DNA of 47,634 nucleotides, from the NCBI GenBank assembly GCA_937124575.1, contig CAKZKY010000118.1:1-47634 (forward strand), written 5' to 3'. Both the position numbers and the translations under genes were made by a program. Source of the stretch: an uncultured Pseudomonadota bacterium. Lineage in GTDB: Bacteria; Desulfobacterota; BSN033; UBA1163. Below the pieces are notes generated by a model that was given only the letters and a program-made list of their open reading frames with translations, ran no database searches and was not told where the DNA came from. Below, piece by piece: positions 2,175-22,709 of this stretch; within the stretch, counting starts at the first letter, position 1, and each line of letters opens with the position of its first letter.

Positions 2175-2201
2175 CACGATCCAAAGAAGGAGGTGGAATC
2201 C

Positions 2202-2726
2202 ATCAGCAAGGATGTGCGCGTCAATCGCGAGATTCGGGCTAAGGAAGTCAGGGTCATCGATCCTGAAGGAAAACAGATAGGAATATTACCATTGGTAGAG
2301 GCATTACGGGCCGCGGCTAATGCCGATTTAGACTTGGTCGAGGTTTCTCCCAAATCGGAACCGCCCGTCTGTCGAATTATGGACTTCGGCAAATTCAAAT
2401 ACCAACAGAGTAAAAAGGCCCATGATGCGAAGAAGAAACAGGCAGTTATTCATCTCAAGGAAGTGAAGCTGAGGCCCAAGACAGAGGAACACGATTTAGG
2501 GTTTAAACTCCGACATATTGAGCGCTTTTTGAAGGAAGGAGACAAGACCAAAGTGACCATCGTCTTCAGGGGGAGAGAGATTGCCCATCCCGACTTGGGA
2601 AGGCAGATGATGGAACGAATTGCCGAGCAGGCTAAAGAATGGGGAAGAATTGAGCAACCCCCTAAATTCGAGGGCCGAAATTATGTGATGATTCTGGCTC
2701 CTCTGACAGGGCAGAAGACGACATAA
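2202..2726 (+). CDS. infC: translation initiation factor IF-3, probable AUC start
   Basis: IF-3 binds the 30S subunit and checks start-codon/initiator-tRNA pairing. The protein opens SKDVRVNREIRAKEV, the typical IF-3 N-terminus, and contains the signatures PPVCRIMDFGKFKYQ and a C-terminal domain ending near KFEGRNYVMIL; 174 aa is a normal length. The preferred start is ATC at 2202-2204: the Shine-Dalgarno AAGGAGG (2187-2193) lies 8 nt upstream. The only upstream in-frame standard start, GTG at 2193, overlaps the Shine-Dalgarno and would be poorly placed. Rare AUU/AUC starts are established for infC, where IF-3 represses its own translation. The next in-frame GTG (2214) would cut off conserved residues. 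The function is certain; the start is an inference. Confidence 0.96.
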   Translation: MSKDVRVNREIRAKEVRVIDPEGKQIGILPLVEALRAAANADLDLVEVSPKSEPPVCRIMDFGKFKYQQSKKAHDAKKKQAVIHLKEVKLRPKTEEHDLGFKLRHIERFLKEGDKTKVTIVFRGREIAHPDLGRQMMERIAEQAKEWGRIEQPPKFEGRNYVMILAPLTGQKTT

Positions 2727-20906: not shown

Positions 20907-20935
20907 TTGACTTGATTTTTAGGCCGTATTAAAAT
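20907..20935 (+). promoter_or_regulatory. Strong sigma70-type promoter for hflX
   Basis: TTGACT (20907-20912), a 17-nt spacer, and TAAAAT (20930-20935). Five of six bases match consensus in each hexamer. The expected start of transcription is near 20942, only about 13 nt before the proposed ATT start codon of hflX, so the leader would consist of little more than the Shine-Dalgarno AAAAGGAG (20941-20948). Confidence 0.65.
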
Positions 20936-20954
20936 TTTTGAAAAGGAGACGTCA

Positions 20955-22709
20955 ATTAGCAAAGTCTTTGGAAACATCATTGGTCTGAAACCCAATCAGA
21001 TCAGGCGGATTGAGTATATCTATCGGAGGAAGATCCCACCCGAGAAGATCGTCACTCCTGAAGTTGCCCACCTTTTATTCGACCTCTCCAGAGAAATTCA
21101 TCGGCAAATCGGAATCCTTATCGGAAGGAGAGGAGCTATCGAAATGGTCATCGTTGGAGATCAACGTGGGATTACGATCCCTGACCTTTCGCGCGATCGA
21201 ATCGGCATCCCCCGATTAAGGGGGGTGCGATTGGTTCATACACACCTAAGAGGGGAGCCTTTGAACGAAGAAGACTTAACGGATCTTGCCCTATTAAGGC
21301 TGGACATGATCGTTGCCCTGACAAGCGATGGCAAGAAGGGGCAAGAAACGATCCACTACGCCCATCTTCTCCCTGACAATCCAGCGAAGAGAGTGTGGGA
21401 GGTCGAATCCTCTTGTTCATGGAATGACTTAGAGATTAATTTTCTGAAATGGGTCCAGTCATTGGAAGATCAGTTTCAGCGAGGCCAGAGGGCAATCTCT
21501 ACGAAAAGTCGCAAGGAGAAGGCTATCCTCATCTCGGTCAGTCGAGAGAACCGAGACGTTTTGGAAAACTCCATGGAAGAGTTAAGGGAGTTGGCAGAAT
21601 CGAGTGGTGTGTTGGTGGCAGAGACGATCATCCAGAGGCCACAAACGATTTCGCATTCCACGCTGATCGGAGAGGGAAAATTAAGAGAGCTACTTGTGAA
21701 GTGTATGCAATTGGGTGTGGATCTGATCATCTTCGATCAGAATTTAACACCTGGGCAGATGGCTTCGATCTCTGACCTGACCGAATTGAGAGTGATTGAT
21801 CGAACCCAGCTTATTCTGGACATCTTTGCCCAGAGGGCCCATACTCGGGATGGGAAGAATCAGGTGGAGCTGGCACAGCTGAAATACTTGCTTCCGCGCC
21901 TTGCCAGAAAGACTTTGGCGCTTTCAAGGCTGACCGGAGGAATTGGAGGAAGAGGGCCAGGAGAAACAAAGCTTGAGATTGATCGGCGAAGGGTGAGGGA
22001 GAGGATCCATCTTCTGGAAAAGGAGCTGGAGCGCTTGAGCCTGCGCAGGGAACAGAGAAGAGCCCTTCGTAAAAAAGCGGGGATTCCCATTCTTTCCATC
22101 ATCGGATATACGAATGCAGGGAAATCAACCCTTTTTAATCTTCTCACGAAGAGCCGCTTTAGCGTGGAGGATAAACTCTTTGCCACATTAGATACAGCCA
22201 CCCGTAAGTTGAGATTGACCAAAGATCTCTGGGTGAAGAGAGAACCCATGGATGTGGTGATTACGGATACGGTCGGTTTTATTAAGGATCTGCCTAAGGA
22301 TCTATTAGGAGCCTTTCGACCCACCTTCGACGAGCTCAGGGAATCTGATCTTTTGATTCATCTGGTCGATATCAGCAGTCCGAGACGACAGGAACATATG
22401 GAGGCTGTCCAAAAGATCCTGATGGAACTTGGATTGGAAGAGATCCCACTCTTTTTAGTTTTCAACAAAGAGGACAGAATGGACCAAGAGGAGGTAAGGG
22501 CGCTCTGCAAAAGATACGGTGCTGTATCGATCTCAGCCCTTCGACCAAAAAGCCTCAGCGATTTTTTCATGGAGCTTGAGAGGAAGCTCGAAGAGATTTA
22601 TTCCTCAAAAATGGAAGATAGCAAAGTCCTTGACGATTTTTGCAAGATACCCAACGAAGACATCTCCACCGAATTATTGCAACAGGTTGACAAACGGGAT
22701 TGGGTCTGA
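20955..22709 (+). CDS. hflX: ribosome-splitting GTPase HflX, apparent AUU start
   Basis: Translational GTPase that dissociates stalled ribosomes. The frame is open from a stop at 20913; the first ATG/GTG/TTG after it is ATG 21144, but the 63 codons before it encode a conserved-looking HflX N-terminus (SKVFGNIIGLKPNQIRRIEY, REIHRQIGILIGRRG). The best fit is ATT at 20955, 6 nt after AAAAGGAG. From there the protein is 584 aa: HflX N-domain, helical linker with GGIGGRGPGETKLEIDRRR, then G domain with G1 GYTNAGKSTLFN, G3 DTVGFIKDLP and G4 FNKEDRMD. If ATT is a sequencing error for ATG, the start is unchanged. Starting at 21144 (521 aa) would remove part of the N-domain. Confidence 0.93.
   Translation: MSKVFGNIIGLKPNQIRRIEYIYRRKIPPEKIVTPEVAHLLFDLSREIHRQIGILIGRRGAIEMVIVGDQRGITIPDLSRDRIGIPRLRGVRLVHTHLRGEPLNEEDLTDLALLRLDMIVALTSDGKKGQETIHYAHLLPDNPAKRVWEVESSCSWNDLEINFLKWVQSLEDQFQRGQRAISTKSRKEKAILISVSRENRDVLENSMEELRELAESSGVLVAETIIQRPQTISHSTLIGEGKLRELLVKCMQLGVDLIIFDQNLTPGQMASISDLTELRVIDRTQLILDIFAQRAHTRDGKNQVELAQLKYLLPRLARKTLALSRLTGGIGGRGPGETKLEIDRRRVRERIHLLEKELERLSLRREQRRALRKKAGIPILSIIGYTNAGKSTLFNLLTKSRFSVEDKLFATLDTATRKLRLTKDLWVKREPMDVVITDTVGFIKDLPKDLLGAFRPTFDELRESDLLIHLVDISSPRRQEHMEAVQKILMELGLEEIPLFLVFNKEDRMDQEEVRALCKRYGAVSISALRPKSLSDFFMELERKLEEIYSSKMEDSKVLDDFCKIPNEDISTELLQQVDKRDWV

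Follow-up and report, generated by a model that had tools for sequence, protein, structure and literature searches.

A putative AUU start codon of hflX belongs to a class kept across most Thermodesulfobacteriota and shared with infC

The gene for IF3, infC, is the textbook case of a gene that starts at AUU, and rejection of AUU-class codons by IF3 in 30S initiation is established for infC of Escherichia coli. Outside infC, conserved non-AUG starts have to our knowledge been thought of as rare curiosities. HflX is a protein that pulls apart stuck ribosomes. According to the available portions of two papers, IF3 discriminates against AUU-class starts and this discrimination is the basis of infC autocontrol (PMC9410913, PMC13009471); in the available part of a third, HflX splits 70S ribosomes and IF3 holds the free 30S subunit and blocks re-association (PMC9067457).

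A preliminary description of the locus studied here held that only a handful of genes, mainly infC and pcnB of E. coli, have established AUU starts. This is somewhat too narrow, because further genes are known in Staphylococcus aureus and Listeria. In the accessible sections of the respective papers, infC, cvfC1 and ccpN of S. aureus start at AUA or AUU (PMC13009471), and six Listeria genes carry fixed non-canonical starts, including infC with ATT and rnhC with ATC (PMC13068326). Here we examine the start of an hflX gene in a stretch of 47,634 nucleotides (the window), where the following features were placed:

20907–20912, forward strand: TTGACT, a -35-like hexamer (from the sequence)
20913–20915, forward strand: in-frame TGA that closes the hflX frame upstream (from the sequence)
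20930–20935, forward strand: TAAAAT, a -10-like hexamer (from sequence and conservation)
20943–20948, forward strand: Shine–Dalgarno AAGGAG, 6 nt 5′ of the start codon (from the sequence; duplex -8.7 kcal/mol)
20955–20957, forward strand: putative AUU start codon of hflX (from conservation among relatives, the Shine–Dalgarno and a scan of the window)
20955–22709, forward strand: hflX, 584 amino acids from the AUU plus stop (from translation and family and domain matches)
20958–21143, forward strand: hflX codons 2–63, invisible to gene calling restricted to ATG, GTG and TTG, inferred to be under purifying selection (from dN/dS and a structure model)
21144–21146, forward strand: ATG codon 64, the first canonical start in the hflX frame, rejected as the main start (from relatives, dN/dS and the structure model)

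The reading frame confirms the initial observation that no ATG, GTG or TTG occurs in the hflX frame from TGA 20913 up to ATG 21144; the codons between them begin ISKVFGNIIGLKPNQIRRIEYIYRR. The ATT at 20955 lies, as first described, 6 nt after AAAAGGAG (20941–20948), and the proposed promoter was found in its place, with 17 nt between TTGACT and TAAAAT. Transcription is predicted to start at about position 20942, from which a leader of about 13 nt is inferred. A similar promoter arrangement was recognized by eye upstream of hflX in 15 of 17 members of the family, the exceptions being G002 and G009. Folding of the RNA at the start (20942–21010) gave nothing better than shuffled sequences (z -0.89), and we claim no structural element there. 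Judged by comparison of genomes, with no expression or N-terminal peptide data, the assignment of the hflX start to AUU 20955 is close to certain.

The identity of the product, also proposed at the outset, was upheld by a match to the GTPase HflX model TIGR03156 (416.5 bits against a cut-off of 216.75). The domains GTP-bdg_N (residues 204–292), GTP-bdg_M (294–372) and MMR_HSR1 (381–505) follow in that order, each above its cut-off. The score against NF008280, the model for ribosome rescue HflX of the E. coli type, was 299.1 bits and did not reach the cut-off of 441, which places the protein within HflX and outside that narrower subfamily. It is a long form, extended at its N-terminus by about 190 residues. 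A search of residues 1–190 (window positions 20955–21524) gave no hits in PHROGs and nothing convincing in Pfam, and a profile search of the PDB with the N-terminal domain returned a best E value of only 0.85. A structure model of these 190 residues, built from six sequences, had a mean pLDDT of 73.9.

The modelled N-terminal domain gave its best alignments with JAMM/MPN domains. In VIA-align the best match was JAMM1 of Pyrococcus furiosus (5ld9_A; Z 6.9, rmsd 3.8, 111 residues aligned), JAMM chains took most of the top rows and RadC reached Z 5.6; Z values under 8 may reflect merely a common arrangement. The best Foldseek hit (E 3.2e-3) had another fold, and several JAMM rows lay at about 0.02–0.1. 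Three residues, H95, H97 and D107, are invariant across 17 sequences. The JAMM metal motif is H-x-H-x7-S-x2-D; set against it, the HflX N-terminus has its D one residue early and lacks the S. A JAMM/RadC-like domain is possibly fused to HflX here, but Z values of this size do not suffice to claim one.

The start of hflX was then surveyed across relatives. Searched with the HflX protein, 57 of 59 relatives gave matches; with the N-terminal 190 residues, 221 of 297 genomes of the phylum did. The hflX 5′ end was read in 148 genomes, comprising 30 loci of the 59-relative search (the genome of the window included), 16 plus 100 of the 297-genome search and two named Desulfovibrionaceae. From the 297-genome search only the best matches by similarity were available for reading, which leaves the most divergent hflX genes under-represented. 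The group was recognized as Thermodesulfobacteriota by its named members, namely a Deltaproteobacteria MAG and Syntrophaceae UBA2208, each with an identical locus, plus Solidesulfovibrio; a scan of named genomes yielded five hflX loci, three of them identical over the compared stretch to loci already in the sample.

No in-frame ATG, GTG or TTG occurred between the upstream stop (sought up to 40 codons away) and codon 5 of hflX in 103 of the 148 genomes, and 101 of these 103 had ATT, ATC or ATA (together ATH, or AUH in RNA) no more than two codons from the aligned start. The codon exactly at the aligned start was ATT in 47 genomes, ATC in 45, ATA in 18, ATG in 6, GTG in 2 and TTG in 2; the remaining 28 had other codons, reflecting a shifted alignment or a different start. 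Within a span of -3 to +4 codons around the start, 123 of the 148 genomes had ATH only, 16 both kinds, 7 a canonical codon only and 2 neither. Of the 123 ATH-only genomes, 24 had an in-frame stop at most three codons ahead of the ATH; in 8 of them the stop was immediately adjacent. Assigned by hand, a canonical start (ATG, GTG or TTG) serves hflX in 18 of the 148 genomes, so the AUH class is not essential for this gene. The two genomes with neither kind of codon belong to family f15, in which loci L066, L071 and L103 have ACG at the start position where their sister G071 (L057) has ATG; these three probably start hflX at ACG. L066 had been counted as ATH owing to an ATA at +3.

The AUU reading was to be checked by looking for ATG at 20955 in relatives, and it held: all 17 genomes of the family to which the window belongs have ATT or ATC there, the first two bases are identical in every pair, and the codon class is kept in most of the phylum. 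As far as genomes can be read for start codons, an AUH-start hflX is conserved through most of Thermodesulfobacteriota. By sequence, the gene also shows two marks of the infC type of start: no canonical codon in frame ahead of the conserved N-terminus, and AUU, AUC or AUA behind a Shine–Dalgarno and kept in relatives. In the window, infC has the following features:

2187–2193, forward strand: Shine–Dalgarno AAGGAGG of infC (from the sequence)
2202–2705, forward strand: infC (IF3), from ATC 2202 to the end of the family match, with the same putative start class as hflX (from family match, start reading and scan)

For comparison, the best 30 loci of each gene search were read in the same way as hflX for infC and four control genes. 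A canonical start was absent from 20 of 30 infC loci, none of 30 each for frr, guaB and era, and 3 of 30 for ispE. The other 10 infC loci had GTG adjoining or inside the Shine–Dalgarno (9) or ATG (1). Among 19 genomes with both genes, infC (codons read by eye) has ATH in all except G023 and G058, and hflX has it in 16. In all, a canonical start is missing from 103 of 148 hflX and 20 of 30 infC loci, but from none of the 90 loci of frr, guaB and era and from 3 of 30 of ispE; the start of hflX thus behaves like that of infC and unlike those of the other genes tested.

Some single loci stood out during this reading. The infC Shine–Dalgarno region of the window itself contains a GTG, a codon that standard gene finders could pick, and in G058 (L176) infC appears to start at CTG. 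For ispE of G059 (L332:1937-1939; G059:C1:1701937), ATT is the only candidate start, preceded by GGGAG and by a stop two codons upstream. In G027 and G063 (L359, L360) ispE has neither a canonical nor an ATH start and shows CTG after AAGGAG, which suggests that it starts at CUG.

A scan of the window with a simple start score, aimed at genes for which an ATH start is the better explanation, put infC at rank 1 and hflX at rank 2 among 28 gene-like ORFs; these two alone had positive differences. The same scan of 400 kb of G052 gave infC rank 1 and hflX rank 2 of 228. With altered coding models, hflX ranked 3 in the 400 kb of G052 under both the codon and the hexamer model, and infC ranked 4 with the hexamer model and fell beyond the top 12 with the codon model; in 800 kb of G059, hflX ranked 2 and infC 8 under both. 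The G052 and G059 scans are noisy and model-dependent, and other high-ranked ORFs resemble over-long or masked frames. The scan supports the infC and hflX pair and does not show them to be unique.

The AUH start of hflX is compensated by a stronger Shine–Dalgarno. Median duplex energy was -9.8 kcal/mol for ATH starts (n = 127) against -4.25 for canonical starts (n = 18; Mann–Whitney p = 1.3e-5), and the contrast persisted on family means (51 versus 15 families, p = 3e-4), with p values that are rough because species share ancestry. Corresponding medians were -8.55 for frr, -7.95 for guaB, -5.7 for era and -11.5 for infC.

We propose that hflX is translated from AUU 20955 behind its strong Shine–Dalgarno and that, since AUU, AUC and AUA are codons that IF3 rejects, initiation would be slow and would depend on free IF3. 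A shortage of IF3 relative to 30S subunits would then speed the synthesis of both IF3 and HflX, and ribosome splitting by HflX would be coupled to IF3, the factor against subunit association. The inference that HflX synthesis is sensitive to IF3 had been made in the preliminary description and is strengthened because infC has the same start class in the same genomes; there is no experimental test. We hold with good confidence the explanation as a whole, that is, a start at AUU 20955, a phylum-wide conserved set of AUH-start hflX genes and IF3-dependent initiation. IF3 control of hflX and its physiological sense are inferred without data on the response to IF3, and our belief in them is about evenly divided. 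We are equally undecided whether hflX and infC make up a small regulon in most Thermodesulfobacteriota, with IF3 itself reading their shared AUH starts, so that low free IF3 would raise both products.

The codon may instead do no more than hold HflX synthesis at a constant low rate, a role proposed for the AUU of pcnB, with no meaningful sensing of IF3. The pairing of a strong Shine–Dalgarno with AUH and a weak one with AUG fits tuning to a set rate, the ATT-only ispE of one genome implies that such starts arise for other reasons, and, as given in the available text of the source, AUU and AUA starts in S. aureus yield about 10% of the output of AUG in poor medium (PMC13009471). However, a weak Shine–Dalgarno with AUG would suffice for this end, as in some lineages, and a fixed rate accounts poorly for an AUH start that most of the phylum keeps and that infC shares. 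We regard a merely fixed rate as a tentative possibility that stays in contention.

It is very unlikely that the true start is ATG 21144 at codon 64, with the first 63 codons untranslated, or that translation yields a shorter isoform in addition. In the genome of the window this ATG has GAGGAG 8 nt before it. ATG is present there in 12 of 19 near relatives, which leaves room for a second, shorter product; the other 7 have none, however, and the Shine–Dalgarno-like stretch is not kept. Elsewhere in the phylum, the first downstream canonical codons are scattered, from codons 0–9 to codons 110–119. Base identity by codon position across the 17 family genomes was 0.77/0.82/0.51 for hflX codons 2–21 and 0.81/0.92/0.46 for codons 22–63, with no three-base periodicity in the ten codons upstream of the start (0.59/0.56/0.56). 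For codons 2–63, dN/dS was 0.038–0.107 in the 6 of 16 pairs with unsaturated dS. From these substitution patterns, the stretch 20958–21143 is inferred to evolve as protein and the sequence upstream of it is not. The structure model places confident elements ahead of codon 64, with block mean pLDDT of 86–90 at residues 11–70 and 73 at residues 1–10, and codon 64 itself sits within predicted strand 61–67. Given the protein-like periodicity, low dN/dS and predicted fold, initiation at ATG 21144 would truncate a conserved and, by prediction, folded domain. We reject it as the main start on the relatives, dN/dS and predicted fold.

Entry into the frame from elsewhere, by a frameshift or at another near-cognate codon near 20955, cannot be excluded for a single locus from sequence alone, but it is most improbable: from lineage to lineage the Shine–Dalgarno keeps a spacing that suits the ATH codon, 8 genomes have a stop directly ahead of the ATH, no start-like codon besides the ATH is shared among lineages, and the predicted leader is just about 13 nt long. 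A miscalled base hiding a true ATG, the trivial alternative offered at the outset, might be entertained for a fragmented assembly of 529 contigs without raw reads, yet it is excluded for practical purposes by ATT or ATC in 17 of 17 family genomes and ATH in most of the 148.

With AUU 20955 as its start, hflX would join infC, in the same genomes, as a second translation gene whose non-AUG start is kept through the greater part of a phylum. Searches of the open-access PMC literature turned up no paper describing hflX with a non-AUG start; the type of start is already known, and as far as the literature was searched its phylum-wide occurrence on hflX is new. The gene allows a direct test of whether IF3 acts on other genes in trans, and ties the supply of IF3 to ribosome splitting; if the proposal is true, trans-acting, phylum-wide start-codon discrimination sets the pool of free subunits. 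We further infer, without having inspected annotations, that gene finders limited to ATG, GTG and TTG must shorten or misplace hflX in such genomes.

Compared with known systems, the protein shares the family model and GTPase domains of the ribosome-splitting GTPase HflX (TIGR03156) but carries an N-terminal extension of about 190 residues, for which neither Pfam nor the PDB gave a sequence match. The lepA genes of Borrelia and Bacillus licheniformis likewise encode a ribosome GTPase that is full length only from AUU, although, in the portion of the source available, this is a prediction for two species with no lineage-wide pattern (PMC1780047). The starts of S. aureus cvfC1 (AUU) and ccpN (AUA) and of Listeria rnhC (ATC) are also conserved and non-canonical and come with initiation mapping, but as far as the available text extends they are conserved within a genus or species and belong to genes of other functions, and hflX is not named in the main texts (PMC13009471, PMC13068326). 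E. coli pcnB is, in the accessible parts of the sources, another gene not encoding IF3 that has an AUU start and is translationally limited (PMC9410913, PMC1780047); its function differs from that of hflX. With infC, autogenously controlled from its AUU, AUC or AUA start, hflX shares the codon class, a strong Shine–Dalgarno, the same genomes and the same window; the difference is that infC codes for the factor that discriminates, of which hflX would be a target in trans.
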